Below are positions 6,819 to 50,155 of a stretch of 50,309 nucleotides of DNA, piece by piece (the first letter of the stretch is position 1; each line of letters begins with the position of its first letter). Origin of the DNA: an uncultured Oscillospiraceae bacterium (GTDB lineage: Bacteria; Bacillota; Clostridia; Oscillospirales; Oscillospiraceae). A program made the position numbers and the translations under genes. The stretch covers positions 1 through 50,309 of the forward strand of contig CALWXG010000012.1 of NCBI GenBank assembly GCA_944385435.1. The letters are read 5' to 3'. Below the pieces are notes generated by a model, which saw nothing but the letters and a program-made list of their open reading frames with translations, was not told the DNA's origin and searched no databases.

Positions 6819-6839
6819 TCAATATAGGAGGTTTGCGCT

Positions 6840-35479: not shown

Positions 35480-36749
35480 GCCTTTTCCCTCCCAAGAAGT
35501 TGATGAATCCGTCGGGGAATCCCTTTCCCTTCAGCAGGCAGATGGTCTTGATGTCCAGCTCCGCCTGCGGGTTTTCGATCCCCTTGATAAAGGCGCTTTT
35601 TACAACGCCGTTGCCGTCGGCGGAGCCGATCATATTGATGCACTTGATGCGGCGGCCCTCCCGGACGGCACGGATATAGAGGCGCTCGTCCTCGTACTCA
35701 TAGACCTCATCCGCCGGCCGGCAGATGGACGGGTCCCCCATGCTGATGAAGTCATAGTCCAGATAGTGGGCCAGATTGACCAGCACATTGGCGTCGAACT
35801 CCTCGTCTGCGCCGGCCAGATTGGCTCCGGCCACCGCGCCCTGCCGTCCCGCATTGGCCCACACGCCGATGTTGCGGTGGGTCCCGCTCTGGATGTCGAT
35901 TGCCTCGCAGCAGTCGCCGGCGGCGTAGATGCCTTCGAAATTGGTGCGCATGCGGCTGTCCACGGTGATGCCCCGGCCCATGGCGATGCCGCTGTCCTTC
36001 AAGAAGCCGGTGTTGGTGCGCACGCCGATGCACACTGCCACCCGATCCGCCGTAAAGCGGTCGCCGGTTTTCATGACGGCGGTGAGCCGGCCGTCCGGGG
36101 CCCGCTCGATGTGGTCCAGCATCTGTCCGCAGGATACGCTCACGCCCTTGCCCAGCAGATCGCGCTCCACCCGCCGGGCGGTCTCCTCAAAGGTGGCCAC
36201 AGAGAACATCCAGGGGGCGCCGTCCACCAGGGTACAGGGAATCGCGCGCTCCACCAGATCCTCCACCACTTTGATGCCCACCCAGGAGGCGCCGATGACC
36301 AGCCCGGACTTCACCTGTCCGGAGTCCAGGTCGGCTTTCAGCCCAGCCGCATCCTGCACGGTGCGCATTTTGAACACGCCGGGCAGATCCAGGCCGGGAA
36401 TGGGGGGCATGACCGCCGAGGCTCCGGTGGCAATGAGAATCCCGTCGTAGCCGGCCTGGCTTCCGTCGGCCAGCCGGATTGTTTTGCTCTGCGCGTCCAG
36501 CCCGGTGACCGGGCAGTTCATATGGCAGTTCAGGTTCAGTTCCGAGGCGATCTGTTCCAGCGTGCCGTAGGGGAACATGGCCTCCCAGGGGATCGCCCCT
36601 TTTACATAATAGGTGGTGAGCATAGGGTTGCCGGGAGCGGTGTCGGTATCGGAATAGATGTCGATGACCGCCTCACGGTCCCGCTGCCGCACCGCTCTGG
36701 CGGCGTTGTAGCCGGCACCGCCAAATCCGATGATGGCAAGTTTCTTCAT
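35472..36749 (-). CDS. NAD(P)/FAD-dependent oxidoreductase
   Basis: A 425-residue pyridine nucleotide-disulfide-type flavoprotein. FAD-binding site IIGFGGAGYNAARAV (6-20), central ILIATGASAVMPPIPG, NAD(P)-binding site VIGASWVGIKVVEDLVE (about 152-168), and the FAD-contacting GIYAAGDCCEAID (about 265-277). It lacks the redox cysteine that NADH oxidases and CoA-disulfide reductases have near residue 43 (the segment reads TAPGNPMLTTYYVKG). It likely transfers electrons between NAD(P)H and the molybdopterin enzyme. It is first in the operon, with a TTGACA promoter upstream. Confidence 0.87.
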   Translation of the reverse strand: MKKLAIIGFGGAGYNAARAVRQRDREAVIDIYSDTDTAPGNPMLTTYYVKGAIPWEAMFPYGTLEQIASELNLNCHMNCPVTGLDAQSKTIRLADGSQAGYDGILIATGASAVMPPIPGLDLPGVFKMRTVQDAAGLKADLDSGQVKSGLVIGASWVGIKVVEDLVERAIPCTLVDGAPWMFSVATFEETARRVERDLLGKGVSVSCGQMLDHIERAPDGRLTAVMKTGDRFTADRVAVCIGVRTNTGFLKDSGIAMGRGITVDSRMRTNFEGIYAAGDCCEAIDIQSGTHRNIGVWANAGRQGAVAGANLAGADEEFDANVLVNLAHYLDYDFISMGDPSICRPADEVYEYEDERLYIRAVREGRRIKCINMIGSADGNGVVKSAFIKGIENPQAELDIKTICLLKGKGFPDGFINFLGGKRLD

Positions 36750-36817
36750 AGGTTCCTCCCATCCGTCCGTATAAGATAACCGGTGGCAAAGCCACCAAAA
36801 TCCCGATTCTATATTTC

Positions 36818-36847
36818 ATTAAACACCGCCCTGTCCCCTCCTGTCAA
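36818..36847 (-). promoter_or_regulatory. Promoter of the molybdopterin oxidoreductase operon
   Basis: On the minus strand TTGACA (36847 to 36842), 18 bp, TTTAAT (36823 to 36818). A small GGTGGC/GCCACC hairpin (36782-36796) lies in the leader. Confidence 0.62.
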
Positions 36848-36887
36848 ACAGGGGTTTTTGCTACCTAATACCAAGGAATCAGATATC

Positions 36888-36909
36888 GTCCAATCAAAAA
36901 TTTGCTGAC
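36888..36909. promoter_or_regulatory. CCAATC-type motif, copy 1 (candidate regulator site)
   Basis: GTCCAATC, an A/T-rich centre, then TGAC. A similar block occurs in inverse orientation at 38996-39015. It lies between the two divergent promoters, about 20 bp upstream of the opine dehydrogenase -35. Confidence 0.5.
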
Positions 36910-36928
36910 GCATAGCAGAAAACCAAAT

Positions 36929-36957
36929 TTGCCCCCGCCGGAAACATCCACTATAAT
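36929..36957 (+). promoter_or_regulatory. Promoter of the opine dehydrogenase gene
   Basis: TTGCCC (36929-36934), 17 bp, consensus TATAAT (36952-36957), 54 bp before the ATG. Confidence 0.7.
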
Positions 36958-37010
36958 GCAAGGAGATACGATTTGCCGTCCGCCGGGCGGCTGAAAGGAA
37001 GGACAACACT

Positions 37011-38078
37011 ATGATCGAACGAATCACAGTCATCGGCGCCGGGTCCACCGGCCATGCGGTGGCAGGCATTATGTCCATGCGGGGATTTTCTGTGACGCTC
37101 TATGACCACGAGCGCTTTGCCGACGCTCTGAACGCAGTGAAGGAACTGGGCTATATCCAGCTAAGGGGCAAGATCCGGGGCTTCGGCACGCCGGCCAAGG
37201 TCACCACCGACCCCGCGGAAGCGGTCCGCGGCGCCCAGGCCATCTTCGTCCACGTCCCCGCCGACCGGCATGAGGAGGTGGCCCGGGCCATCGCTCCCCA
37301 TCTGGAGGACGGCCAGCACATTCTCATCATTCCCGGCAACCTGGGCTCCTTCCTCTTCCGCAAGGTATTCCAGGAGCTGGGTGTCACGGCCGATGTGACC
37401 CTGACGGAAAAGGAGGGCAACTTCTGCCCCTGCCGTCTGACCGCTCCGGCGGAGGTCACTGTGGGGATGCCCCTCAATCTGAAGGGCAAGGTCGCCTCCC
37501 TCCCCGCCTCTGACACGGAAAAAGTGCTGAAGGCCCTGGAGGGCGTGGTGGAGTACACGGCCAACCAGAATGTCTTTGAGGGCACCATCCGGGCGGGCAA
37601 CGTCATCAACCACATTGCCAGCACCGTGCTGTCCGCCGCGGAAATCGACCACAAGGGCGACAAATACTCCCTGTTTCAATACGCCTTCACCCCCTCTGTG
37701 GTGCACTGCATTGAAAAGATCGCAGCGGAGCGCATTGCTGTCATTGAGGCCATGGGCATGAAGCAGCCCGGGGACCCCATGGCTATGATCCACAAGATTC
37801 TCAAGCTGGAAGAACATCCCGAGGTGGCCACCTTCTATGAATATATGGATGGCCCCAACGCCCTGGACCACCGCTACCTCCACGAGGACTGCGGCTGCGG
37901 CGGCGCCTTTGCCCTGTCGGTGGCCAAACGTCTGGGCATGTCCATGCCGGTTCTGGAGGCCTTCCTGGGAGTGGCAGGCGCCATCAACGACCGGGACTAC
38001 ATCGGCGGCGGCAGGACTCTGGAAAACCTGGGCTTCCCCGCGGAACTCACCCTGGAGGAAATCTACAAGCTGATATGA
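37011..38078 (+). CDS. NAD/NADP octopine/nopaline dehydrogenase-family protein
   Basis: A 355-residue dehydrogenase. VIGAGSTGHAVAGIMSMRG (7-25) is the N-terminal NAD(P)-binding fold, and the C-terminal half has the opine dehydrogenase helical domain with NVINHIASTVLSAAEIDH and a conserved His/Asp pair (FTPSVVHCIEKIAAER). The family reductively condenses an amino acid with a 2-oxo acid, or runs in reverse to break opines. AAAGGAAGG precedes the ATG. It is monocistronic with a good promoter and terminator, and divergent from the molybdopterin operon. Opine catabolism or disposal of an imine intermediate are both possible. Confidence 0.84.
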   Translation: MIERITVIGAGSTGHAVAGIMSMRGFSVTLYDHERFADALNAVKELGYIQLRGKIRGFGTPAKVTTDPAEAVRGAQAIFVHVPADRHEEVARAIAPHLEDGQHILIIPGNLGSFLFRKVFQELGVTADVTLTEKEGNFCPCRLTAPAEVTVGMPLNLKGKVASLPASDTEKVLKALEGVVEYTANQNVFEGTIRAGNVINHIASTVLSAAEIDHKGDKYSLFQYAFTPSVVHCIEKIAAERIAVIEAMGMKQPGDPMAMIHKILKLEEHPEVATFYEYMDGPNALDHRYLHEDCGCGGAFALSVAKRLGMSMPVLEAFLGVAGAINDRDYIGGGRTLENLGFPAELTLEEIYKLI

Positions 38079-38091
38079 CCGGAAACCGGAA

Positions 38092-38138
38092 AAACGCAGC
38101 GGGAGCGGATCACACAAGGATCCGCTCCCGCTGCGTTT
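38092..38138. terminator. Bidirectional terminator hairpin
   Basis: A perfect 20-bp inverted repeat beginning AAACGCAGCGGG with a seven-base loop and ending GCGTTT, between convergent genes. Confidence 0.85.
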
Positions 38139-38174
38139 GATGAGAGAAAATCGGATAAGCGTCAAAGGGGGCCA

Positions 38175-38900
38175 TCAGCAGGTCCAGAGCTTGCCCAGGT
38201 CATCCCGTCTGGTGCCCACCCCGGCAGCCCGGAGGGAGGCCCAGATGCTGGCCTGGTTGCTGGTGACCACAGGCAGGCCGAAATCTTCTTCCATATAGCG
38301 GATCACGCCCATGCAGTCCAGCGCAGTGCAGCTGACGAAGATGCCGTCCGCGCCGGTCTTGTCCAGCTTTTTGGTCTGCTGATAGACATATCCGGGATCC
38401 AGTGTGGGGATGAAGCGGCGTTCCGGGTTCATATCCACAATTGTGGTGACCTCAACGCCGTTCTTCTCCAGGAAGATGCGCTCGGCCTCATTGGTGGCGT
38501 CAGGATAGGGGGTGATGACCGCCAGGCGGTGAAGTCCCAGGGTCTCAAAGGCGTTCAGAATGGCCGTGCTGGTGGTGAGGCCTTTGGATCCGGTGGCGCG
38601 CTCAATGACCTGGATACAATCCTTGTCGTAGGTGGGCCCGCCGATGAGGCTGCCGGAGGTACAGGCAAAAATAATCACATCCTGCTTTTCCCGGGGCTCA
38701 AAAAAGCCTTTGCAGCCGGCCTCCAGGCCCGCGGCCATCATCTTGAGGTTCTCCGGGGTGGGGCCGGCGCCCGGCTTGCCCCAGGGGATATGCATGGTGC
38801 AGATGCCCACGCCCACAGGGGCGTAGGTGTTGAAATCGTTTTCCACGGTGACCGCAGGTCCGGGACAGATGGCGCCGATTTTGGCACGCCAGTTCAACAT
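38175..38900 (-). CDS. Maleate isomerase/arylmalonate decarboxylase-like protein (Asp/Glu racemase superfamily)
   Basis: A 241-residue member of the Asp/Glu racemase superfamily, closest by motif to maleate cis-trans isomerase and arylmalonate decarboxylase. Two catalytic-type cysteines are present: Cys80 in IIFACTSGSLIGG and Cys191 in IFVSCTALDCMGVI, close to the Cys76/Cys194 pair of maleate isomerase. The N-terminal GAICPGPAVTVENDFNTYAP resembles the substrate-carboxylate loop. It could isomerise or decarboxylate a dicarboxylic acid. It is divergent from the two PrpD genes and likely part of the same pathway. Confidence 0.82.
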   Translation of the reverse strand: MLNWRAKIGAICPGPAVTVENDFNTYAPVGVGICTMHIPWGKPGAGPTPENLKMMAAGLEAGCKGFFEPREKQDVIIFACTSGSLIGGPTYDKDCIQVIERATGSKGLTTSTAILNAFETLGLHRLAVITPYPDATNEAERIFLEKNGVEVTTIVDMNPERRFIPTLDPGYVYQQTKKLDKTGADGIFVSCTALDCMGVIRYMEEDFGLPVVTSNQASIWASLRAAGVGTRRDDLGKLWTC

Positions 38901-38928
38901 ATCAAATCCTTCTTTCTGAACAGAGTGT

Positions 38929-38949
38929 CACTATCATAGTGTGATTATA
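38929..38949 (-). promoter_or_regulatory. -10 element and palindrome upstream of the isomerase gene
   Basis: On the minus strand TATAAT (38949 to 38944) is followed by a CACTAT-C-ATAGTG palindrome (38929-38941) at the expected start of transcription, a candidate operator. The -35 (TTGGTG at 19 bp) is weak, as often for activated promoters. Confidence 0.55.
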
Positions 38950-38970
38950 GCATCTGTCCCCCCGCCTGCA

Positions 38971-39015
38971 CCAATCGTTTTTATTGGTAGCCGGTGTCAT
39001 AATTTGCGATTGGAC
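38971..39015. promoter_or_regulatory. CCAATC-type motifs, copies 2 and 3
   Basis: CCAATCGTTTTTATTGG (38971-38987) is a CCAAT-N7-ATTGG dyad of LysR type, and GTCATAATTTGCGATTGGAC (38996-39015) is the inverse of the motif at 36888. Both lie in the divergent region between the isomerase and the PrpD genes, the latter touching the -35 of the PrpD promoter. Confidence 0.5.
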
Positions 39016-39040
39016 AGCTCCCCCTGCGGTGCATTACACT
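39010..39040 (+). promoter_or_regulatory. Promoter of the PrpD pair
   Basis: TTGGAC (39010-39015), 19-bp spacer (or TGGACA with 18), TACACT (39035-39040), 48 bp before the ATG. Confidence 0.55.
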
Positions 39041-39087
39041 CAATTTAAATCACAGACCGTATCATGCTGACATGAGGAGTGAATCAT

Positions 39088-40077
39088 ATGGGCTTCAGCC
39101 AACACAAACTGACCACCACCTATACCCAGGAGCTGTCCGCCTACATCACAGGGCTCCGCTATGAGGACATTCCGGACTCGGTGCTCCGGCGGGCCAAGGC
39201 CGCCGTCATCCACACGCTGGGCAATGCGCTGTCCTCCAGAGACCTGCCCCAGAGCCGCACCGTTCTCTCTCTGGCGGAGATGTGCAACGGCGGGCAGCAG
39301 GGCAATGCCGTATCCTGGGCGGACGGGAACTGCCTGAGTCTGGAAAACGCCTGCATGCTCAATACGTTCCTGGCCGACCTGCCCCTGGCGCCCGAGGATT
39401 GTTCCTGCACCGGCCACCCCGCCGCCGGCATCGTCTCCGCTGCCTGGGGAGCCGCCCACAGTCTGGGCCTGTCCGGTAAGGACCTGCTCACCGCCGTGGT
39501 CGCCGGCTACGAGGTCTACCTGCGCATCGCCGCCGCCGTAAAACCCACCGAGGAGGATGTGGCCAACCGGGGGAAGGGCATCACCAGCTGGCAGCTCTTC
39601 GCCGCCCTGGTGCCCACCCTGAAACTGCTGGACCTGGATGAACTCCAGGTCAACAAGGGACTGAGCATGGGAACCACCTGCGTGCCCATCCCCGCCAGCT
39701 TCTACCTCACCTGCGGCTCAGATGTCTACCACACAGAGCACGCCCTGCGCAGCCAGACCGCCGTCACCCTGGCCCGCTGCGCCAGGCTGGGCGTGGAAAA
39801 TCTGGAGGACGGCCTGGATGATTTCAACGCCTTCGGCACCCTGATGACCTCTGCCCACAACCCCGCCCTGTACACCCGGGAACTGGGCGCGCGGTACTGG
39901 ATGGAGGAGATTCCCTTCACCCCGGACGCCGGCGTCTGCGACGAGCTCGCCCTCAGCTGCGAACACTTCCAGGCCGCCGCCCTCCCCGAGCTGGAACAGG
40001 GCGAGACCCTGCTGGGAATTCTGAATATGCTGGAATGCTGTGAAGACATCTCCGCCCTGGGGCAGCTCTTCCGCTGA
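39088..40077 (+). CDS. MmgE/PrpD-family protein lacking the lid domain
   Basis: A 329-residue relative of 2-methylcitrate dehydratase and cis-aconitate decarboxylase, against about 450 for normal members. The N-terminal helical domain is intact (YTQELSAYITGLRYEDIPDSVL to SWQLFAALVPTLKLLDLDE), but relative to its neighbour about 120-150 residues of the alpha/beta lid domain are missing while the final helices (LECCEDISALGQLF) are retained. At the active site the neighbour's Asp93 and Thr97 are Ala101 and Cys105 here; the His (110) in TGHPAAG is kept. It may be a catalytically impaired partner forming a heterodimer with the next protein. ATG 39088 with AGGAG eight bases upstream. Confidence 0.85.
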   Translation: MGFSQHKLTTTYTQELSAYITGLRYEDIPDSVLRRAKAAVIHTLGNALSSRDLPQSRTVLSLAEMCNGGQQGNAVSWADGNCLSLENACMLNTFLADLPLAPEDCSCTGHPAAGIVSAAWGAAHSLGLSGKDLLTAVVAGYEVYLRIAAAVKPTEEDVANRGKGITSWQLFAALVPTLKLLDLDELQVNKGLSMGTTCVPIPASFYLTCGSDVYHTEHALRSQTAVTLARCARLGVENLEDGLDDFNAFGTLMTSAHNPALYTRELGARYWMEEIPFTPDAGVCDELALSCEHFQAAALPELEQGETLLGILNMLECCEDISALGQLFR

Positions 40078-40108
40078 GTGTACCGTCTGACAGAAGGAGG
40101 CTAACAAC

Positions 40109-41500
40109 GTGAAAACAACTTACACACAAACGCTCAGCCGGTTCACCCGGCAGCTGAGCTATGAGGATATTCCCCCCGAGGTCATAGAGCGGGCCAAGAT
40201 GATTGTGCTTCAGACTCTGGGCGTGTCGCTGGCCGCCAAAAACGTGCCCGGCTCCCGGAAGGCCATCGAGATGGCCCGCGCCGCCAACGGCGGCCCCGGC
40301 GGCACCACCACCGGCTGGGTCAGCGGCGACCGCCTCGCCCCGGCCAACGCGGCATTTCTGGCCGGTTCCCTGTCCGACATGCTGGACTGGGAGGACACTT
40401 CCTGGACCGGCCACCCCGCAGCCGGCATCGTGCCCTGCGCCTGGATTATGGCCGAACACCGGAAGAAAAGCGGCAAGGAATTCCTGACTGCCGTGGTGCT
40501 GGGCTACGAAGTCTATCAGCGCATTGCCTGCGCGGTACAGCCCTCCCTGGACTTTCAGCGGGATCACGGCTGGGGCCTGACCAGCTGGCAGATCTTCGGC
40601 TGCATCATTCCCGCCGTCAAGCTGCTGGACCTGGATGAGACCGCCATCAACAAAGCCATCGGACTGGGCACGGCCGGCAACACGCTCCCCACCTGCCTCC
40701 ATGAGTTCACCATGTCCGATTTCTATCACTATGAGCACGGGCTCCGGGCCCGGGACGGCATCGTCATCGCCCAGCTGGCCGAGCAGGGCATCGACGGCTT
40801 TGAGGATGCCCTGGACGATCCCTCCGCCTTTGGAAATCTGCTCACCGACACCTACGATGAGAGCTGGTACACCCGGGATCTGGGCACGCGCTGGCTCACC
40901 ATGACCACCCTGCTCAAGCACTGGCCCGCCAACATGTGGGTGCAGACCCCCGTGGAGCTGGCCTATGATATCGTCACCGAACACCACCTGTCCGTGGACG
41001 AGATCAAGGAGATCATTGTGGATCCGCCCCGCATGAGCCGCATGGATCATCCCCCTGAGGGCGGCTTCAAGTCCCTGATGCACGCCCAGTTCTCCATCCC
41101 CTATGTCATCTCCGCCATGCTCCATGATCCCACCCCCGGCGCCCAGTGGTACAGCGCAGAACGGCTGCGCGACCCAGTGCTCATCGACTTCGCCCGGCGG
41201 GTGGCGCCCGGAAATTCTCCTCCCGATCCCCGCGGCCTGGGCTTCAAGCTGTTCCGGGAGGGCTCCTTCCTCATGAAAACCATGACCATTCACACCTTTG
41301 ACGGCCGCAGCTTCACCAAGTCCATGGACTGCCACCCCGGCCACCCTGCCAACATGATGACCAGGGAGCAGTTCCAGGACCGTTTCCGGGTGCAGTCCGC
41401 TCCGGTTCTCAGCCCCCAGCGGCAGGAGGAGGCCATCCGCCTTCTGTGTGATCTGGAACACTGTCCCGACCTGTCTCAGCTCAGCACAATCCTCTCCTGA
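40109..41500 (+). CDS. MmgE/PrpD-family dehydratase/decarboxylase
   Basis: A full-length 463-residue MmgE/PrpD protein. The catalytic region DWEDTSWTGHPAAG (93-106) keeps the Asp/Thr/His pattern of cis-aconitate decarboxylase. The lid domain (about 265-425) contains EIIVDPPRMSRMDHPPEG, FSIPYVISAMLHD and DCHPGHPANMMTREQF, which are standard for the family. Members dehydrate 2-methylcitrate or related tricarboxylates, decarboxylate cis-aconitate, or cleave imidodisuccinate. A GTG start with GAAGGAGG. It lies 31 bp after its short paralogue, with a bidirectional terminator 11 bp downstream. Confidence 0.88.
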   Translation: MKTTYTQTLSRFTRQLSYEDIPPEVIERAKMIVLQTLGVSLAAKNVPGSRKAIEMARAANGGPGGTTTGWVSGDRLAPANAAFLAGSLSDMLDWEDTSWTGHPAAGIVPCAWIMAEHRKKSGKEFLTAVVLGYEVYQRIACAVQPSLDFQRDHGWGLTSWQIFGCIIPAVKLLDLDETAINKAIGLGTAGNTLPTCLHEFTMSDFYHYEHGLRARDGIVIAQLAEQGIDGFEDALDDPSAFGNLLTDTYDESWYTRDLGTRWLTMTTLLKHWPANMWVQTPVELAYDIVTEHHLSVDEIKEIIVDPPRMSRMDHPPEGGFKSLMHAQFSIPYVISAMLHDPTPGAQWYSAERLRDPVLIDFARRVAPGNSPPDPRGLGFKLFREGSFLMKTMTIHTFDGRSFTKSMDCHPGHPANMMTREQFQDRFRVQSAPVLSPQRQEEAIRLLCDLEHCPDLSQLSTILS

Positions 41501-41559: not shown

Positions 41560-43110
41560 TTACCCCTTGCAGCCGGTCTCATGGGCGATGCACAGCAGGA
41601 GCAGAAGCACCCGCTGGGTCGGATCCGTCAGGTCGTAGCCATAGCGCTCCTCAATCCGGTTGATGCGGTAAATCACGCCGTTGCGGTGCATGTGGAGCTC
41701 TCTGGCCGTCGTGGTGGCATTGCTCTCATGGAGCAGATAGGTGTACAGCAGCCGGACGGCGCTGATATCGCCCTCCGCCTCGATTTTGGTCATGCGTTCA
41801 AAGTTCTGAGTGCAGTAGAAACGGAAGGGATGGCGCTCAAAGAAATCGCTGAGGATATGAAACAGCATCACATCCTGATAGCGGCAGACGCTCTCGGACT
41901 GCCCTGCGGCGTTGTGGGCATGCAGGTTGATGGCGTCCTCCGTCTGAAGCAGGAATCTGGCCTGATCGTAGGCGAATTTCAGGCATCTCAGGGTCGTGAA
42001 GTAGTTGCTGACAAAGCAGATGGCGCCCAGCCGCCGGAGGGTTTTCGCAAACAGGCCGACCCGCCTGTTCAGATCCTCCTGCGCCGCTGCGTCGTTTTTC
42101 TCCGTGCCGAAGAGGGCCAGCAGGGTCTTGTGATAGGTAAAAAAGTGGATGCTGGGATGCAGCAGCTGAAGCTGCGTGCGCAGGGTGCTCTCACCGGCAA
42201 TATGGGGGCCGAACCGGATGGCGCCCAGGGTGAAGCACCGGTCGTTCTGCAGCCCGAGGCTGGCGCTGATCTCATTGAAGCGCTGATGCTGCGGGTCGTC
42301 GATGAGCTGGGAAAACAGGGAGTCCGAGGAGTCTATGACGCTGCCGGCCAGATCCCGGAGGCCGGCGCTCTCCTTGAGCCGGCGCATGAGGTTCTTGATG
42401 ATGTCCCGCACGCCGTTTCCGCTGTCGTCCTCCACCCGCACCATGCCGAAACGGAGCACCGGCACGCCGTCAATCACACAGTTTGCCAGCAGTTCCCCCT
42501 TTTTGGAAAAGCTGTGGACGCTGGTGACTGTATTCATGCCCGGGTGATAGGCGGCCCGCTGATCGGAGGGCATGTTCATCAGGTCCTCAAAGAACCGGGC
42601 CGGAGACCGCCCCGTATCCAGGGTCTCCGCAAAATAAGGGCTGGCGCTGCTGTCCAGCAGCTCCCTGCCCCACTGGGCCAGCACCCGGAACTGATTGTCC
42701 AGGAAAAAGCAGGGGCCGCGCAGCACATGGGCGCTGGCATCCAGGATCTCCTGAAAGCTGCCGCTGTTGATGAGCAGATGGGAGAGGGTCTCATCCCACT
42801 GGCGCAGCACCTCCGACAGCTCCTGAAGCTGAGAGAAAAATTCGGGCAGCGTACCGTCCGCCTCCACCGCATACCGGACCCATTGAGGCTGTGCGTCCTT
42901 GTCCTCGGTCAGTACGCACAGGTCCGCATCCCTGGCCGCGTCAAGGTCTCCGCCGGCCTGCGTCACATAGAGATGATCCGGCAGCAGTTCACAGCCGGGA
43001 TAGTATAACCGGACTGACACATATTCCTTCCGTTTTCCCGCCAATCTGATGCGGAACGGCCATTTTTTGCGGGTGAAATAGTCCGAAATGATATTGTGTG
43101 TCAGATTCAT
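41560..43110 (-). CDS. PucR-family-like transcriptional regulator
   Basis: A 516-residue regulator. The C-terminal 60 residues are a PucR-type helix-turn-helix (LLYTYLLHESNATTTARELH, then MHRNGVIYRINRIEERYG). The upstream 200 residues resemble the GGDEF-like linker of the CdaR/PucR group (FTLGAIRFGPHI, FFTYHKTLLALFG), and the N-terminal region may bind a small ligand. Of two ATGs six bases apart, 43110 is chosen because GGAG lies eight bases before it. It is divergent from the iron-sulfur flavoprotein operon and is the likely activator of that catabolic cluster, sensing its substrate. Confidence 0.84.
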   Translation of the reverse strand: MNLTHNIISDYFTRKKWPFRIRLAGKRKEYVSVRLYYPGCELLPDHLYVTQAGGDLDAARDADLCVLTEDKDAQPQWVRYAVEADGTLPEFFSQLQELSEVLRQWDETLSHLLINSGSFQEILDASAHVLRGPCFFLDNQFRVLAQWGRELLDSSASPYFAETLDTGRSPARFFEDLMNMPSDQRAAYHPGMNTVTSVHSFSKKGELLANCVIDGVPVLRFGMVRVEDDSGNGVRDIIKNLMRRLKESAGLRDLAGSVIDSSDSLFSQLIDDPQHQRFNEISASLGLQNDRCFTLGAIRFGPHIAGESTLRTQLQLLHPSIHFFTYHKTLLALFGTEKNDAAAQEDLNRRVGLFAKTLRRLGAICFVSNYFTTLRCLKFAYDQARFLLQTEDAINLHAHNAAGQSESVCRYQDVMLFHILSDFFERHPFRFYCTQNFERMTKIEAEGDISAVRLLYTYLLHESNATTTARELHMHRNGVIYRINRIEERYGYDLTDPTQRVLLLLLCIAHETGCKG

Positions 43111-43168: not shown

Positions 43169-43268
43169 CCAAATTCCAGCGGAAAATCTACTGTTTTTCC
43201 GTTGTTTTTTTGATATTTTCTTGGCAAAGAACATTTCCTGCAGTTCAAGAGAGAAAGGATTGGTAAAA

Positions 43269-44168
43269 ATGAAGATTCTGGGCATCAGCGCAGGACGCCG
43301 CAACGGAAACTGCGAACTGCTGACGAAACAGGCGCTGAAGGGCGCCGAGGCCGCAGGCTGCGAGGTGCAGTTCCTCCGCCTGCAGGACTTCAAGATCCTT
43401 CCCTGTACCGGATGTACTGCCTGCATCATGCGCAAGTACTCCGGGCTTCAGTCCGCATGCACCATTCCGGACGAAGCCGATGACTATGCGAAGTACGTGG
43501 ATCTGGTCCTGGAGGCGGACGGCTTCATCATTGGCGCACCCTGCTACAACCTGACGGTGGCCGGCCGCATGCTGGACGCCAACAACCGCAAGCACTGCTT
43601 CCTCTCCCAGCTGAAGGAGCGCTGCGCGGCTCAGCCCAAATTCGCCGCCACCATCGGCGTGGGCGGCAGCGACTGGACCAACTTCCTGATGCCTGTGCTG
43701 AACTTTGTGGCCAACGAGCACTGCGGCAGCAAGCTGAACCTGGTGGATCAGATGCTGGTGGAAAACAATTCCGAGCCCGGCCTGGTCATCCTGGAGGACG
43801 AGCTGCTGGCCCGGGCCTACAAGCTGGGCGAAAATGTGGCCAGTGTGGTGCTGGCTCAGGATGTGGAGCACACCTACCGGGGCGACTGCGAGGAAGTCTG
43901 CCCCCTGTGCCACGGCAGTCACCTGCAGCTCTATCACGGAAAGCTGATCTGCCCCACCTGCAACACGGTGGCCCACGTGACCGAGGAGGACGGCAAGCCC
44001 GTCATCCGCTGGGAGACTCCCGCCGAGCTCAGCCGCTGGTCTGAGTACGGCGATCAGAAGCACATGGGCGCCATCCGCAGCGGCGCCCAGCGCTTCCACC
44101 AGAACAAGGATCTGATCCAGGAAAAGGCTGCCCAGCTGCGCAGCTACCTGGAACCTGTCAAACCCTAA
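43269..44168 (+). CDS. Iron-sulfur flavoprotein with C-terminal zinc ribbon
   Basis: A 299-residue protein beginning with an NADPH-dependent FMN reductase fold (MKILGISAGRRNGNCELL, the FMN phosphate loop). PCTGCTACIM (Cys46, 49, 52) plus Cys64 is the compact Cys motif of iron-sulfur flavoproteins, predicting a [4Fe-4S] cluster next to FMN. The C-terminal part adds CPLCHGSHLQLYHGKLICPTC (two CxxC knuckles, about residues 226-245), a zinc-ribbon- or rubredoxin-like extension not typical of the basic family. It likely passes electrons to the flavoprotein reductase encoded 18 bp downstream. RBS GAAAGGA. Confidence 0.85.
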   Translation: MKILGISAGRRNGNCELLTKQALKGAEAAGCEVQFLRLQDFKILPCTGCTACIMRKYSGLQSACTIPDEADDYAKYVDLVLEADGFIIGAPCYNLTVAGRMLDANNRKHCFLSQLKERCAAQPKFAATIGVGGSDWTNFLMPVLNFVANEHCGSKLNLVDQMLVENNSEPGLVILEDELLARAYKLGENVASVVLAQDVEHTYRGDCEEVCPLCHGSHLQLYHGKLICPTCNTVAHVTEEDGKPVIRWETPAELSRWSEYGDQKHMGAIRSGAQRFHQNKDLIQEKAAQLRSYLEPVKP

Positions 44169-44186
44169 TCACAAGGAGGACACACC

Positions 44187-45674
44187 ATGAAAACCTTACA
44201 AGCGGATGTGGTCGTGGTGGCGGCCGGCCTGTCCGGCCTGGCAGCGGCCATTACGGCAGCGGAACAGGGCCTGAGCGTCATTGCCCTGGAAAAGTCCAAG
44301 ACCACCGGCGGCGCCGCCAGCATGGGCGTGGGCCCGCTGGCCATCGGCACCAAACACCAGGCCGCCGTGGGCTACAACCTGACGGCCGACGAGGCTTTCC
44401 TCAAGCATATGCACTGGTCCCACTGGATGGTGGATGCCCGGCTGGTGTACGACTACTACCGGAAGAGCGCCTCCACCCTCGAATGGCTGGAAGACATGGG
44501 CGTGGAGTTTGTCTACCGCAATACCACCCTGTACACCCCCACCCGGATGCGGGCCTATGCCGAGCCGGAGCGCACCTGTCACGCGGTCAAGCCCGCGGAA
44601 GGCGGCCGGATCGGGCCCCGGGTGGCCGCCCGCATGACCAAGGCCATGGCCGAGCGTGCCAGGGAGCTGGGCGTGAACATCCTGCTGGAGACGCCGGGCA
44701 AGAAGCTCATCATGGAGGACGGGAAAGTGGTGGGCGTGCTCGCCCAGTCCGTGGACGGCGAGGAGCTGGAAGTCCGGGCCGGCGCGGTCATCCTGGCCAC
44801 CGGCGGCTGCGGCGACAACCCGGAGATGCTCAAGGAGCACACCGGCCTGACCTGGGGCAAGGACCTGTTCTCCTTCCGCATCCCCGGAAACGTGGGCGAC
44901 GGCATCAAGATGGCCTGGGAGGTGGGCGCCGCCCGGGGTCAGATCAAGCTGGATCTCATGTATCAGATTCCCGACAACCTGGCCCATTTCCACCTGGAGG
45001 GCGCGTTCCGCCAGCCCGTACTGTGGGTCAACAAACTGGGCGAGCGCTTCATGCCTGAGGACTGCATTGCCAACACCTGCACCACCGGCAACGCCATCAA
45101 CCGCCAGCCCGGCCACACCTGCTTCGCCATCATGGACAACGCCACCCTCCGGTATTACAAGAAGCACGGCATTGACATCTTTGGCATCCAGGGCACCGAC
45201 GTGTTCGACTACTTCGACAAGGAGGCTGAGGACGCCCTGGCCAACGGCTATCCCTACTTCTTCAAATGTGATACCATCGAGGAACTGTGCCAGCAGACCG
45301 GCATTGACCTGGAGGGCCTGCAGGAGACCCTGGAGACCTACAACTCCGACTGCGACGAAGGCTACGACAGCCTGTTCTGCAAGGACCGCAACTTCATGCG
45401 GCCCGTCCGCAAGCCCCCCTTCTACTGCATCCAGTCCTTCCCCGGCGCCTATGGCTCCTTCGGCGGTCTGAAAATCAACTACAAGACCGAAGTGGTCAAG
45501 GAGGACGGCTATCCCATCAAGGGCCTGTACGCCGTGGGCACTGACGCCTGCGACATCTACGGCGACACCTATCCGTTCCTGCTGGGCGGCAACACCATGG
45601 CCTTCTGCCTGAACTCCGGCAGAATGGCAGGCGAATACGCCGCAGACTACATCGCCAAGAGCAAGGAGAACTAA
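44187..45674 (+). CDS. FAD-dependent oxidoreductase, fumarate-reductase-flavoprotein-like
   Basis: A 495-residue FAD_binding_2-family protein. The nucleotide-binding loop reads VVAAGLSGLAAAITAAEQG: the first Gly of GxGxxG is Ala here, a mild deviation. ILATGGCGDNPEML, WVNKLGERFMPED and the late YGSFGGLKINYKTEVV and GTDACDIYGDTYPFLLGG are characteristic of fumarate reductase, urocanate reductase and ketosteroid dehydrogenase relatives. No signal peptide or covalent FMN domain is seen, so it is cytoplasmic and probably uses the adjacent flavoprotein as electron donor. It may reduce a C=C bond of an enoate or phenolic compound. Confidence 0.87.
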   Translation: MKTLQADVVVVAAGLSGLAAAITAAEQGLSVIALEKSKTTGGAASMGVGPLAIGTKHQAAVGYNLTADEAFLKHMHWSHWMVDARLVYDYYRKSASTLEWLEDMGVEFVYRNTTLYTPTRMRAYAEPERTCHAVKPAEGGRIGPRVAARMTKAMAERARELGVNILLETPGKKLIMEDGKVVGVLAQSVDGEELEVRAGAVILATGGCGDNPEMLKEHTGLTWGKDLFSFRIPGNVGDGIKMAWEVGAARGQIKLDLMYQIPDNLAHFHLEGAFRQPVLWVNKLGERFMPEDCIANTCTTGNAINRQPGHTCFAIMDNATLRYYKKHGIDIFGIQGTDVFDYFDKEAEDALANGYPYFFKCDTIEELCQQTGIDLEGLQETLETYNSDCDEGYDSLFCKDRNFMRPVRKPPFYCIQSFPGAYGSFGGLKINYKTEVVKEDGYPIKGLYAVGTDACDIYGDTYPFLLGGNTMAFCLNSGRMAGEYAADYIAKSKEN

Positions 45675-45697
45675 GGCAAGGAAAAAGGAGTGATTTT

Positions 45698-46474
45698 ATG
45701 AACCCGATTCTCCCGATTTCCGAAGAGGACAAACAGAAATCCTACTATAAGTATTACGTTGAGAAAATGGCCCCTGTGGACCCGCTGCTCAATGAGAAGG
45801 CGGCCGCCGCCCGGCTGACCCCGGAAGAGGTGCTCATGCCCTCCGAGATCAACCGGCTGTTTGAGCCCGGCCATCTCCCCGGCGAGATGGGCTACTGCAT
45901 TCTGCCGGACGGCTCGGCCTATATGGCAAACCGCATGTTCATGCCCAATGTCACCCCCGAGATGTTCGACTGGTGGTTCACCTGGCACTGTCTGGACCCG
46001 CTGCGGTACAAAATCTGGGACCCGGACGATCACCTCTACGCCATGACCCGCAACCCGGAGCAGGCCAGGGATCCCAAACTCTCCTGGCGGGAGCGGCTGT
46101 GGGGTACCCGGCACGACATCACGGAAGGCTTCGGCGCCGCCCCCAAAGACGTTGTGGTCCCCTTCATTCACCCGGTGGAACTGGGCTTTGACCGGGACCT
46201 GTATGAGGCCTTCCCCGGCACCATCATCGCCATGGCCTCGGATGACGTGCGCACCGTCTCCCTCCACTTTGTCCGCCCCGTAGAGGGAGGCGTGGAACTG
46301 CGCAGCCGCTTCTGGTTCGGCTGGCGGCTCATTGACGGCAAGGTCGCCCGGGGCGATGACATCACCTACCCAGAAGGGCTGCCCAGATCCCTGCTGCTCC
46401 ACAACATCAAGGAATTCACCAACCTGGCCCGGCTGCTCCCACGGATTTTCCCGGAAGAGCGGGACAACTTCTGA
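45698..46474 (+). CDS. PhlG/phloretin hydrolase-family C-C hydrolase
   Basis: A 258-residue protein that I recognise as a member of the DAPG hydrolase (PhiG/PhlG) family, which cleaves the carbon-carbon bond linking an acyl group to a phloroglucinol ring and includes phloretin hydrolase. The diagnostic region is MFDWWFTWHCLDPLRYKIWD with His97; Glu143 in DITEGFG, His190 in VSLHFVRP and His235 in LLLHNIKEF are candidates for the zinc site, with spacing close to that in PhlG. It is shorter at the N-terminus than PhlG. Its place in a reductive operon suggests cleavage of an intermediate after ring or alkene reduction. RBS AAGGAG. Confidence 0.82.
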   Translation: MNPILPISEEDKQKSYYKYYVEKMAPVDPLLNEKAAAARLTPEEVLMPSEINRLFEPGHLPGEMGYCILPDGSAYMANRMFMPNVTPEMFDWWFTWHCLDPLRYKIWDPDDHLYAMTRNPEQARDPKLSWRERLWGTRHDITEGFGAAPKDVVVPFIHPVELGFDRDLYEAFPGTIIAMASDDVRTVSLHFVRPVEGGVELRSRFWFGWRLIDGKVARGDDITYPEGLPRSLLLHNIKEFTNLARLLPRIFPEERDNF

Positions 46475-46477
46475 GCG

Positions 46478-47446
46478 ATGGGTGCCGCAATGCTTCTCTC
46501 TGACGAGCAGGTGCGTGCGGCCCTGGAACCGGTCTCGCTGGTTCCGGCCATGGACGCGCTGTTTCGTCAGCTGGCCCGGGGCGAGGCGGAAAACCTGCCC
46601 CGCAGCGCCATCCGTCACTCCAACGGAAACATCCTGGCGGTTATGACCGCCGTGCTGCGCAGCCAGGGCGTGTGGGGATGTAAGACCGCCGTGTTTCCCG
46701 GCAAAGACGCCGTCGACACCGCCCAGAGCACCATCCAGGTTTTCGACCTGGAAAGCGGCGCGCTGCGGGGCATCGTGTCCGCGCAGTACATCACCCTGGC
46801 CCGCACCGCTGCCTGCTCCGCCGCGGCCACCGCGGCGCTGGCGGTTCCGGACGCCTCTGTCCTCTGTCTTCTGGGCGGCGGCGGTCAGGCTGTGGCCCAT
46901 GCCGTGGAACTGTGCCGTGTGCGGCCCATCCGGGAGATCCGGGTGTGGCGGCGGGACAGGGCGGCCTGTCAGGCGGCCTGCCGCACCATCACCGCGCACA
47001 CCGGTGTGGAGGCCGCTCCCGCAGACGACGCGGAGTCGGCCGTGGCCGGCGCCCACATCGTCTGTACCGTCACCGCTTCCCGCACCCCCGTTCTGCGGGG
47101 AGAGTGGCTGAGTCCGGGCACCCATGTCAACGCCGTGGGCGCCTGCGGCCCGATTGCCAGGGAACTGGAGTTGTCTGTGCTGCGCCGCAGCCGGGTCTAT
47201 GTGGACAGCCTGCTCTCCATGCCCCAGGCCACCGGCGACCTGCTCATCCCCATCCAGGAGGGCAGCTACAGCATGGCGGAAATCGCCGGCGAGTTGGGCA
47301 ATGTACTCACCGGCACCTGCCCCGGGCGCACACCCGGGGATCGGGAGACCATCACCCTGTTTGAAAGCTGCGGCCTGGCCATGGAAGACATCGGCGCCGC
47401 CCTGGCTGCCCTGCAGGCAGCAGAGGGAACGCCGTTCCCCTTCTGA
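46478..47446 (+). CDS. Ornithine cyclodeaminase/mu-crystallin-family reductase
   Basis: A 322-residue member of the OCD/mu-crystallin family. The NAD(P) loop is LCLLGGGGQAVAHAVELC (GxGxQA form, about 130-147), preceded by TAQSTIQVFDLESGALRGIV and TLARTAACSAAATAALA. The Lys of GVWGCKTAVFPGK is kept, but the segment HVNAVGACGPIARELE lacks the Asp used by true ornithine cyclodeaminase, which favours a ketimine reductase or alanine-dehydrogenase-like role. It starts three bases after the PhlG-like gene, with a poor RBS, so it is translationally coupled. Substrate unknown. Confidence 0.84.
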   Translation: MGAAMLLSDEQVRAALEPVSLVPAMDALFRQLARGEAENLPRSAIRHSNGNILAVMTAVLRSQGVWGCKTAVFPGKDAVDTAQSTIQVFDLESGALRGIVSAQYITLARTAACSAAATAALAVPDASVLCLLGGGGQAVAHAVELCRVRPIREIRVWRRDRAACQAACRTITAHTGVEAAPADDAESAVAGAHIVCTVTASRTPVLRGEWLSPGTHVNAVGACGPIARELELSVLRRSRVYVDSLLSMPQATGDLLIPIQEGSYSMAEIAGELGNVLTGTCPGRTPGDRETITLFESCGLAMEDIGAALAALQAAEGTPFPF

Positions 47447-47489
47447 CCCGGCAAACCGCAGCAAAACCATGGTTCCCTCTGTCCGTTTT

Positions 47490-47509
47490 CCGCGGCCCAT
47501 CCGCCGCGG
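47490..47509 (+). repeat. Small intergenic hairpin
   Basis: CCGCGG and CCGCGG flank an eight-base loop in the 109-bp gap before the permease gene. No T run follows, so it is not a convincing terminator. Confidence 0.35.
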
Positions 47510-47555
47510 TCTATTGGAGATATCGAAACGAGAGATTTGAAGGAGGTTCTAGTGT

Positions 47556-49025
47556 ATGTCAAATCAGAAAGCAGCGGCCGTCAAACGGCAAAACCCTGTG
47601 GTTTACTATGCCATTGTCATCATCTGTGTCGCTATCATGTTCCTCGGTAAGTACATCACACCCTTCGCCCCTGAGATCACCCCCGTGGGCATGGGCGTCC
47701 TGGGCGTCTTCATCGGCGTCGTGATCCTGTGGTCCAGCGTGGGCGGCTCTGTGTGGCCCAGTATCCTGGCCATTGTCGCCCTGGGCTGCACCGGCTTCAG
47801 CACGGTCATTGAGGCCATCAGCAGCTCCCTGGGCGCCATGATGGTGTTCAACATCCTGTGTATCTGCGCCATGACCTCCGGCCTCACCGCCTCCGGTGCC
47901 GACAAAAAGATGGCCCACTGGCTCATCACCCGCAAGATGTGGATCGGCAAGCCCTATCTGTTCACCTTCGTGTTCCTGTTTGCTTTCTTCCTGATCTCCT
48001 CCGTCACCTTCGCCATGGCCATGATCTTCATCTGCTGGACCATCCTGCGCAAGATGGCGGACGAGGTGGGCGTGTCCATGCGCCACCGCTATTTCGTCAC
48101 CATGACCATCTACGCCGTGGTGGCCTCCAGCCTGGGCGAGTTCGTCATCCCCATCAAGGGCTGGCAGTATGCCCTGTGCAACATCTTCGCCGGCGCCTCC
48201 GGCGCCCCCGCCAACATCGGCCTGTACATCCTGGTCACCTTCATCATCGGCATTGTGATGATGATCATCATGGTGGCCGTCATGAAGCCCCTGTTCAAGG
48301 TGGACTTCACCCCCATCGCCAACTACCGTCCCAAAGAGGTCCAGCCCGGTGAGCTGCGCCTGAACGGCAGCCAGCTGGCCATCCTCATCGTGCTGATCGT
48401 GAGCATGCTGCTGTCCATCTTCACCAACTTCCTCACCGGCGAGGGCGCCTTCGCCAAAGCCATGACCACCCTGGGCCTGCCCGGCATCTTCGGCATCGCC
48501 CTGGTCATCCTGTGCATCATCAAGACCAAGGAAGGCAAGCCCGTCCTGGAGTTCACCAAGGTCATGGGCGGCATCTCCTGGAGCCCCATCCTCCTGGTTG
48601 GTATCGCCACCTGCCTGTCCTCTGCCCTGACCAATGAGGCCTGCGGCTTCATGGCCTTCTTCTCCCGCACCCTGGTGCCCCTGCTGGCCGGCAAGTCCGC
48701 CTTCGTGGTCTACGCCTTCGTCATCATCGTGGCCTGCGTGCTCACCAACGTGGCCTCCAACATGGGCATCGGCATGATGATGATCCCCATCGCGGTACCC
48801 ATCTTCCAGGCCGCCGGCTGCAACATGAACGTGGCCGCCATCGCCGTGATGTACACCGCCTGCTTCGGCTTCATCCTCCCCGGCGCCGCCGCCGTCAGCC
48901 CGCTGATGTACAGCAACACCGACCTGACCAAGCCCGAGATCCTCAAGACCACTACCTTCGCCGTGGTGCTCTACATCATCATCGGCATCATCGTATTCCC
49001 CGTTCTGGATATGCTCCTGCGCTGA
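47556..49025 (+). CDS. SLC13/DASS-type permease (paralogue of the 5.3-kb gene)
   Basis: A 489-residue membrane protein with about 12 hydrophobic segments. FAPEITPVGMGVLGVFIGVVIL matches the same region of the permease at 5334, and SSVTFAMAMIF and TNVASNMGIGMMMIP occupy the two hairpin positions that carry SNT motifs in classical SLC13 proteins. The two copies are too different to be recent duplicates. GAAGGAGG stands before ATG 47556. It ends the catabolic operon and probably imports its substrate as an anion. Confidence 0.82.
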   Translation: MSNQKAAAVKRQNPVVYYAIVIICVAIMFLGKYITPFAPEITPVGMGVLGVFIGVVILWSSVGGSVWPSILAIVALGCTGFSTVIEAISSSLGAMMVFNILCICAMTSGLTASGADKKMAHWLITRKMWIGKPYLFTFVFLFAFFLISSVTFAMAMIFICWTILRKMADEVGVSMRHRYFVTMTIYAVVASSLGEFVIPIKGWQYALCNIFAGASGAPANIGLYILVTFIIGIVMMIIMVAVMKPLFKVDFTPIANYRPKEVQPGELRLNGSQLAILIVLIVSMLLSIFTNFLTGEGAFAKAMTTLGLPGIFGIALVILCIIKTKEGKPVLEFTKVMGGISWSPILLVGIATCLSSALTNEACGFMAFFSRTLVPLLAGKSAFVVYAFVIIVACVLTNVASNMGIGMMMIPIAVPIFQAAGCNMNVAAIAVMYTACFGFILPGAAAVSPLMYSNTDLTKPEILKTTTFAVVLYIIIGIIVFPVLDMLLR

Positions 49026-49062
49026 CCAGAAAAATCTCTGTTCACTCATTCGCCCTACGTGG

Positions 49063-49093
49063 AGAGGAGCCTCCGGCCGGAGGCTCCTCTTTT
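49063..49093 (+). terminator. Terminator after the second permease
   Basis: AGAGGAGCCTCC and its complement (12-bp perfect stem, GGCC loop) followed by a T run (TTT after the stem's closing T). Confidence 0.87.
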
Positions 49094-49150: not shown

Positions 49151-50155
49151 GTGAAGATCGAACACCTGAATTACCTGCGGGAGGTGGAAAAATGCAAATC
49201 CATTTCCGCCGCCGCAAAGAAAATGTATATCGGGCAGACCACGCTCAGCGCCATCATCAAATCCATTGAGGAAGAACTGGGTGTGCGTCTGTTTCACCGG
49301 TTGCCCAACGGAGTGGTTCCCACGGAAAAAGGTGAGGAAATCCTGCGCTATTCCGAGGAGATCGTCACCAAATATCAGGAAATGCTTCAGTACTGCCAGC
49401 TGGACAGCAGTCTGGAAAAACGGGTCCACTTCCTGGGGGATTCCACCACCTGTGCGTTCCTCTCGGTCTATCTGACCAAGACCCTGCTGGAGCTGGACTC
49501 CAGGGAATCCGCCTCCATCATTTTCCACGAGGTGGAGCGGCGCAAGCTGGTCTCCTCCATCGTGGATGGTCTGGCCAACATCGGCGTCACCTCCCTGGAC
49601 TCCCAGGTGGAGGTGGAGCCCTCCGTCACACAGGCGGAGCGCAGCGGCATTGAGGCCATTCCCCTGGGCATCGACCGGTTTTACCTCTGTGTTCGCCCGG
49701 ACAATTCCAAATTTGCGGGTCAGTCCATGGTGGATGTGGCACAGCTGGCGCAGGAGCGTTTTGTCGCCCCGTATCACTACTCCGCGGTCCCCAACGGGAC
49801 TGTGTTCAGCGATGTGATCCGACAGCTCCACTGCATCGCCGTGCTGCCGGGTGTGGAGTTTGTCAAGCAGACCGTGGCGGAATGCGCTGACATGATCACC
49901 ATTCTGACCGGCCGGAACCTGGTCAACGATCCCTACATTCTCCGCGGGCAGCTGCTGGCCATCCCGCTCACCGGTTTCGGCGTGCCCAACTGTACTTCCA
50001 TCTATATGTTCAGCAAAAAACGCAGCTCTCTCAATTTCTTTGAAAAGGCTATCTACGACGCCCTGAAGAGCTACGGCAAACAGGCTCTGTCCTCTGTGGA
50101 CTTTGCCGATGAGACAAAAGAACCCTATCCGCCGCTGTTCAACCTGCAGAACTGA
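49151..50155 (+). CDS. LysR-family transcriptional regulator
   Basis: A 334-residue LysR protein, somewhat longer than usual. HTH: MKIEHLNYLREVEKCKSIS, then AAAKKMYIGQTTLSAIIKSI. The effector domain starts at KRVHFLGDSTTCAFLSVYL and includes IDRFYLCVRPDNSKFAG. A C-terminal extension of about 20 residues (SSVDFADETKEPYPPLFNLQN) follows. GTG start with GGAAGGAGG. It is on the same strand as the permease operon, with its own promoter, and 68 bp before the next gene; it could regulate the [2Fe-2S] gene that follows or the preceding operon. Confidence 0.87.
   Translation: MKIEHLNYLREVEKCKSISAAAKKMYIGQTTLSAIIKSIEEELGVRLFHRLPNGVVPTEKGEEILRYSEEIVTKYQEMLQYCQLDSSLEKRVHFLGDSTTCAFLSVYLTKTLLELDSRESASIIFHEVERRKLVSSIVDGLANIGVTSLDSQVEVEPSVTQAERSGIEAIPLGIDRFYLCVRPDNSKFAGQSMVDVAQLAQERFVAPYHYSAVPNGTVFSDVIRQLHCIAVLPGVEFVKQTVAECADMITILTGRNLVNDPYILRGQLLAIPLTGFGVPNCTSIYMFSKKRSSLNFFEKAIYDALKSYGKQALSSVDFADETKEPYPPLFNLQN

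Follow-up and report, generated by a model that had tools for sequence, protein, structure and literature searches.

What compound would a bacterium process with two putative ene-reductases, a carbon-carbon (C-C) bond hydrolase, an imine-reductase-like enzyme and a permease encoded side by side? This question is raised by positions 43269-49025 of a 50,309-nucleotide stretch of DNA (contig CALWXG010000012.1 of assembly GCA_944385435.1; hereafter the window) from an uncultured Oscillospiraceae bacterium, where five plus-strand genes are tightly packed opposite the divergent gene of a PucR-type regulator. Reading frames and Pfam searches confirmed these five genes, their families and the facing PucR-like regulator as they had been named in an initial annotation made from the sequence alone. 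From sequence comparisons, we read the locus with middling confidence as an operon for the breakdown of a flavonoid- or acylphloroglucinol-type phenolic ketone from plants, a compound that would be reduced, reduced again and then hydrolysed. The substrate may be shifted relative to that of the known flavonoid route, with nitrogen possible.

The reductase and hydrolase genes

Gene 1 (43269..44168, + strand; longest frame 43221-44168, with an ATG at 43269) encodes an FMN reductase-fold protein (Pfam FMN_red, 7e-15) with a C-terminal Cys4 motif. A single-sequence search returned one PDB relative at E<=0.001, 7d38 (E 4.9e-31), which is the flavone reductase FLR of Flavonifractor plautii (PMC7862272). 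With a 12-sequence profile, residues 1-300/301 aligned to residues 1-306/310 of 7d38, tail included (E 9.4e-85), and the product is most plausibly a homolog of FLR, the starter enzyme of flavone degradation. The initial annotation had called it a [4Fe-4S] flavoprotein; the Cys motif is real (C46-x2-C49-x2-C52-x11-C64, which is nearly invariant among the aligned sequences and also occurs in FLR), and what had been missed was the homology to FLR, its closest match. The paper on the FLR structure uses neither 'iron' nor 'sulfur' in its main text (PMC7862272). FLR residues S147, W149, H271 and I275 are retained as S134, W136, H265 and I269, and FLR mutants at W149, H271, I275 and G106 are described as having lowered activity (PMC7862272). 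By alignment, the two proteins have the fold and the flavone-stacking side in common and differ in other contacts.

Gene 2 (44187..45674, + strand; Pfam FAD_binding_2, 1e-61) encodes a predicted FAD-dependent ene-reductase, here FRD, of the flavocytochrome c/urocanate reductase/ketosteroid dehydrogenase fold. Its nearest NCBIfam model was vinyl phenol reductase VprA (NF053717; 309.2 bits, under the 600-bit equivalog cut-off). FRD has the FAD-binding fold and family in common with VprA, urocanate reductase and flavocytochrome c but, besides missing the VprA cut-off, is without Arg at the R402 position of fumarate reductase (flavocytochrome c), which we located through R402A PDB entries in the alignment and which was non-Arg in 14 of 14 aligned members. 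We take R402 to be the catalytic Arg of fumarate reductase.

Gene 3 (45698..46474, + strand) encodes PHY, a zinc C-C hydrolase of the phloretin hydrolase/PhlG family (DAPG_hydrolase, PF18089, 8.5e-65; 218.9 bits, cut-off 22.7). Its PDB matches included 5xe5, the phloretin hydrolase of Mycobacterium abscessus (7e-42; ~35% identity), and 3hwp, PhlG (3e-30; ~29% identity), to which an AF2 model (pLDDT 95) gave TM-scores (query) of 0.83 and 0.80. Residues H112, E143, H235 and E239 (H, E, H-x3-E), presumably the zinc ligands, and H190, which we take to be the catalytic His, align to 5xe5; the 3hwp row reaches H112, E143 and H190 only. Fold, zinc ligands (for 3hwp the first two aligned), H190 and Y104 are thus in common, whereas the position of PhlG Y229 is Phe in PHY, as in at least 90% of 29 aligned rows. 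All 92 clostridial rows compared retained the four ligands, and 87 of the 92 retained H190; 5 of 97 non-PDB rows (L093, L094, L095, L096 and L147, L denoting loci) had been left out of this count because of their high divergence, and L096 was missing the E143 counterpart in the 29-row alignment. Glu replaces His190 in five clostridial rows, by alignment including L078. Separately, we observed a PHY subclade of five rows (L078, L083, L084, L085 and L088), four of which adjoin FRD-type reductases.

Conserved neighbourhoods and reductase-hydrolase fusions

PHY loci were collected by scanning 84,980 species, each represented by one genome, with a pattern-based method, and the best 80 of 118 confirmed relatives were compared. 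FLR matches were present in five of the 80 (L009, L010, L011, L067 and L069) and FRD matches in nine. FLR-FRD-PHY was conserved in three further genomes (57-94% identity): L009 holds a copy of the window operon plus its neighbours in the same gene order (PHY 93%), and L010 and L011 have an MFS gene inserted into the set (57-83% identity). L010, from an uncultured Flavonifractor, reads PucR / FLR-FRD-MFS-PHY-M20-OCD-GltD-like-NuoF-like-permease, where OCD is the ornithine cyclodeaminase-family gene, and L011 reads FLR-FRD-MFS-PHY-M20 up to its contig end. Since the order recurs in L009, and FLR-FRD-PHY in L010 and L011, the five-gene arrangement is not a chance one. In a 99-row PHY tree (quick method, short search, no bootstrap), the window and these three loci formed a single clade (SH-aLRT 100, stem 0.56). 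The initial annotation had made its proposal depend on the zinc site and on a conserved neighbourhood, and both were found, with all ligands in place and the genes kept together in L009, L010 and L011.

An FAD reductase family (FAD_binding_2 + Succ_DH_flav_C), of another clade than the window FRD, was found by BLAST clustering in 44 of the 80 PHY loci, and in 15 it was fused with PHY in one chain, the domains being Pfam-checked in L020 only. The fusions are ~810-870 aa long with the PHY domain C-terminal (L020:6330-8768, L017, L022, L025, L026, L041, L043, L045, L046, L047, L049, L053, L057, L063 and L068), and some adjoin phloroglucinol genes, homologs of which occur in part of the 80 loci (DPGC-type cyclase in 12). 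Although their FAD clade differs from the window's, no other independent evidence speaks as strongly as the fusions for sequential action of FAD reductase and PHY. With two ene-reductase-like genes preceding the hydrolase, and with these fusions, reduce-then-cleave chemistry on a phenolic, as first proposed for the locus, stands as the best reading.

We then drew 391 genomes of the class, seven of which had a close FRD (E<=1e-100). Around these matches, L168 reads PHY-FLR-FRD-GltD-NuoF, and L169 reads PGR-DPGC-TAL-thiolase-like-CoA-transferase-like-PHY / PucR / FLR-FRD-GltD-NuoF, its thiolase-like and CoA-transferase-like genes being named via their first residues and a published cluster, with no profile. 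The genomes of these two loci are more distant, and their PHY belongs to another clade than the window PHY. L171 reads FRD-GltD-NuoF-FLR, without PHY; in L167, where the contig end truncates FRD, an FLR relative lies one gene away from it; and L165 is the L011 contig again. In the fetched stretches, L170, L172 and L174 had FRD with GltD-NuoF and no FLR or PHY, and L166 and L173 had FRD without FLR, PHY or GltD-NuoF.

These five loci, together with FRD relatives near contig ends of the bacterium's own genome (contigs C89 and C41) and VprA as the nearest NCBIfam model, would fit two loosely joined functions, in which FRD serves as a VprA-like terminal ene-reductase that disposes of electrons onto a phenolic alkene, PHY and OCD act on another compound, and a shared inducer alone explains the operon grouping. 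We regard this as improbable, given that the order of FLR, FRD and PHY is retained in four genomes and that PHY is found fused to a related FAD reductase, as described above.

A GltD/NuoG-N-like flavoprotein and a NuoF-C/ferredoxin-like protein are clustered with FRD in L010 (10962-13918), L168 (11039-14250) and L169 (9841-13032), as well as in L170, L171, L172 and L174; FLR is present too in L010, L168, L169 and L171. By this clustering, the pair is a candidate electron donor. FLR is described as taking up no electrons directly from NAD(P)H, with its donor stated as unexplored (PMC7862272), and the pair offers a concrete candidate for that role.

Candidate substrates

In published gut flavone and flavonol degradation by F. 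plautii, the genes are FLR-CHI-EnoR-PHY (PMC7862272), CHI being chalcone isomerase. The window operon has an FLR homolog, a PHY-family hydrolase, a second ene-reductase and C=C reduction ahead of C-C hydrolysis in common with this route. It differs in having no CHI, in the extra OCD and permease, in the separate clade of its PHY and in its second reductase, which is of the fumarate-reductase fold, whereas EnoR belongs to the FAD + [4Fe-4S] enoate reductase class (PMC7862272). Known routes also include, besides CHI, the flavanone/flavanonol-cleaving reductase Fcr (PMC11170127), and a phloroglucinol cluster of PGR, DPGC, TfD and TAL in Clostridium scatologenes; PHY adjoining phloroglucinol genes has likewise been published (PMC10470551). 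Given FLR-CHI-EnoR-PHY and the pairing of PHY with phloroglucinol genes, the statement of the initial annotation that no described pathway has this set was too strong. Our literature search, in a limited library, returned no paper on PHY with ornithine cyclodeaminase or fumarate reductase. The operon probably represents a version of the known route of flavonoid degradation to which an imine-reductase-like gene and a transporter have been added, and it names a fumarate-reductase-fold ene-reductase as a candidate step before phloretin hydrolase in gut-type flavonoid metabolism.

The genome itself (G000; 2.87 Mb, 94% complete, 1.9% contamination; the window is on its contig C12) encodes CHI homologs on C37 (50% identity) and C9 (35%), with three weaker matches, so that the absence of chalcone isomerase noted at the outset holds for the operon but not for the genome. 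Contig C14 carries a four-gene phloroglucinol operon, PGR-TfD-DPGC-TAL (67, 78, 80 and 67%), with homologs of all four C. scatologenes genes (PMC10470551) outside the window operon; in L169, by comparison, PGR, DPGC and TAL homologs run together with PHY, FLR and FRD. Because the genome has both CHI homologs and this operon, the flavonoid frame gains support. All six module genomes that were searched had DPGC, although G500 yielded just a 66-residue fragment of it at the end of a contig. Among the 391 class genomes, DPGC (E<=1e-100) was present in nine and close FRD in seven, with four shared (Fisher 4e-6 with the own genome, 1e-4 without), the DPGC and FRD draws being taken as the same set since their size and handles agree.

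The PHY family is expanded in G000, with 12 PF18089 matches, 11 of them above cut-off (C43, C4, C12, C49, C28, C132, C68 and C1); in 60 genomes, own included, seven had any match and the next highest count was four. Contamination may add a few of these genes, as C132 and the right end of C68 differ in third-codon GC. FLR relatives in G000 gave 11 matches in all, counting that of the window, and two of the 11 are pieces of one gene. A second cluster on C4 comprises GltD, FLR, a short PHY, two PucR, MFS, PHY, FRD and an OYE-type reductase, and C9 holds CHI-like, FLR, FAD reductase and FRD relatives. Several PF18089 genes adjoin MFS transporters. A gut habitat is presumed for the organism from its relatives (a sister metagenome-assembled genome of Oscillospiraceae and one of Flavonifractor).

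In the pathway that we propose, the permease would import the substrate, and the FLR-like flavoprotein, by homology and part of its pocket residues, would reduce the ring C=C of a pyrone-like enone. FRD, judging by its fold, its lack of the fumarate arginine and the genes it is paired with, would then reduce an enone or styrene C=C; its electrons would come from an iron-sulfur flavoprotein whose gene lies outside the operon, such as the GltD/NuoF-like pair found near FRD in relatives. PHY would cleave the acyl-aryl C-C bond to give an acid and an electron-rich arene, which may feed the genome's phloroglucinol pathway. In what is the weakest step, OCD would act on an acid that stems from the acyl half and carries an alpha-imino or alpha-oxo group.

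Several points weigh against this proposal. We know of no flavonoid route that OCD fits. The operon itself is without a CHI, PGR or DPGC gene, the own-genome search found no CHI on C12, and an electron-donor gene is absent from the window operon. Some stretches around class-draw matches hold FRD relatives that have no FLR or PHY nearby, and the DPGC co-occurrence is a correlation at the level of genomes, based on a small number of positives. The window PHY stands in its own clade, set apart from other PHY, and A178 and S188 are unique to that clade, with Cys and Met in 88 of 88 other rows. In the FLR-like protein, FLR residues G106, T279, E91 and K92 are replaced by H109, A273, N94 and L95 (the G106/H109 correspondence falls within a variable stretch of the alignment), and M10, S14 and N15 by R10, N14 and C15. 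T279 is described as the carbonyl relay, M10, S14 and N15 as FMN-phosphate contacts, and S147, which is among the retained residues, as dispensable for activity (PMC7862272). The missing counterparts of G106 and of several FMN contacts temper our confidence in the proposal.

The gene that fits the flavonoid frame least is OCD (46478..47446, + strand), which encodes an ornithine cyclodeaminase/mu-crystallin family NAD(P) reductase, possibly ketimine-type (OCD_Mu_crystall, PF02423, 5e-58; 196.9 bits, cut-off 24). Its top PDB match was thiomorpholine-carboxylate dehydrogenase (2e-40). It fell under the cut-off of all 14 matching NCBIfam models (cyclodeaminase, alanine dehydrogenase, ketimine reductase and others; best PRK06141, 199.2 of 322 bits). 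K69 and R109, which presumably bind an alpha-carboxylate, are identical across three aligned homologs. OCD suggests a nitrogen-containing or 2-oxo intermediate, and a shifted, perhaps nitrogen-bearing substrate is a serious alternative because OCD, and in two relatives M20, accompany the PHY clade and PHY carries its two unique substitutions, which suggest a shifted pocket. Such a substrate could be a 4-quinolone, 4-pyridone, tetramic acid or amino acid-conjugated phenolic: FLR and FRD would saturate a vinylogous-amide C=C, PHY would cut the acyl bond, M20 in relatives would open an amide, and OCD would reduce a ketimine or process the released amino acid. OCD lies 3 nt 3' of PHY, occurs in all three clade loci whose contig extends far enough (window, L009 and L010) and was the sole family match in a search of its genome. 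Its best structures are ketimine-type reductases, with alanine dehydrogenase close behind. The M20 amidohydrolase gene, which fits nitrogen better, directly follows PHY in L010 and L011, overlapping OCD by 4 nt in L010, but is absent from the window operon and L009. Moreover, no enzyme here fixes the position of a nitrogen, and DPGC of phloroglucinol degradation in the module genomes fits an ordinary acylphloroglucinol, so that we consider a substrate of this kind possible but unlikely. Doubtful too is its fuller form, a branch of the phloretin-hydrolase pathway adapted to nitrogen compounds, in which a vinylogous amide is reduced, the acyl C-C bond is cut, and the mu-crystallin-family reductase (with M20 in relatives) recovers an amino or imino acid. 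To our knowledge, no anaerobic route of this type to such compounds has been described. With 11 PHY-family matches in a 2.9-Mb genome, one of them travelling with nitrogen-type enzymes, the substrate breadth of the family is directly testable.

The MFS gene adjoining PHY in L010 and L011, and the membership of PHY in the PhlG family, would also be consistent with detoxification of antimicrobial acylphloroglucinols, a PhlG-like role with no carbon-source use. We find this quite improbable: two reductases, OCD and the permease would be superfluous for it, and PHY missed the cut-off of the PhlG equivalog NF047887 (2,4-diacetylphloroglucinol hydrolase; 109.2 of 600 bits).

Operon boundaries, permease and regulator

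Returning to the catabolic operon that we favour, its genes are separated, from FLR to the permease, by 18, 23, 3 and 109 nt. A 13-bp G+C-rich hairpin 3' of the permease gene (49062..49091, + strand; fold -29.8 kcal/mol, z -4.44) is a likely terminator and likely marks the operon end; its T run is short, at four T of which the fold pairs two, and it was not among the matches of a consensus terminator scan, which demands >=5 T. A LysR gene (49151-50155) lies beyond it. The predicted operon is thus likely to consist of FLR-FRD-PHY-OCD-permease.

The permease (47556..49025, + strand), a putative substrate importer or product exporter, matched CitMHS of Pfam just above its cut-off (1.7e-8; 34.4 bits against 31.9) and the DASS subfamily model TIGR00785 far under its own (E 2.6e-12; 46.2 of 198.6 bits). 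By these scores it is a distant CitMHS/DASS relative, for which the earlier label of SLC13-type permease holds at the superfamily level and no further. It is retained in L009 (99%) and L010 (65%).

The divergent PucR-type transcriptional regulator (HTH_30, Pfam 1.2e-16; 41560..43110, - strand) has its start placed at 43110, while its longest frame opens at 43248. Divergent PucR homologs lie beside FLR in L009 (78%) and L010 (39%), and an HTH_30 gene is divergent from FLR in L169; the protein is likely the cognate regulator of the operon. In the leader between its gene and the operon start, we observed a terminator-like hairpin with seven T (43177-43204), a possible attenuator.

Elsewhere in the window, a second DASS-like permease (25% identity to that of the operon) followed by an FAD_oxidored protein is encoded at 5334-8384. 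Positions 33326-41500 encode a molybdopterin oxidoreductase, an FAD reductase, an octopine-dehydrogenase-like protein, an arylmalonate-decarboxylase/EutA-like protein, and a short MmgE/PrpD gene with a longer one after it (40109-41500).

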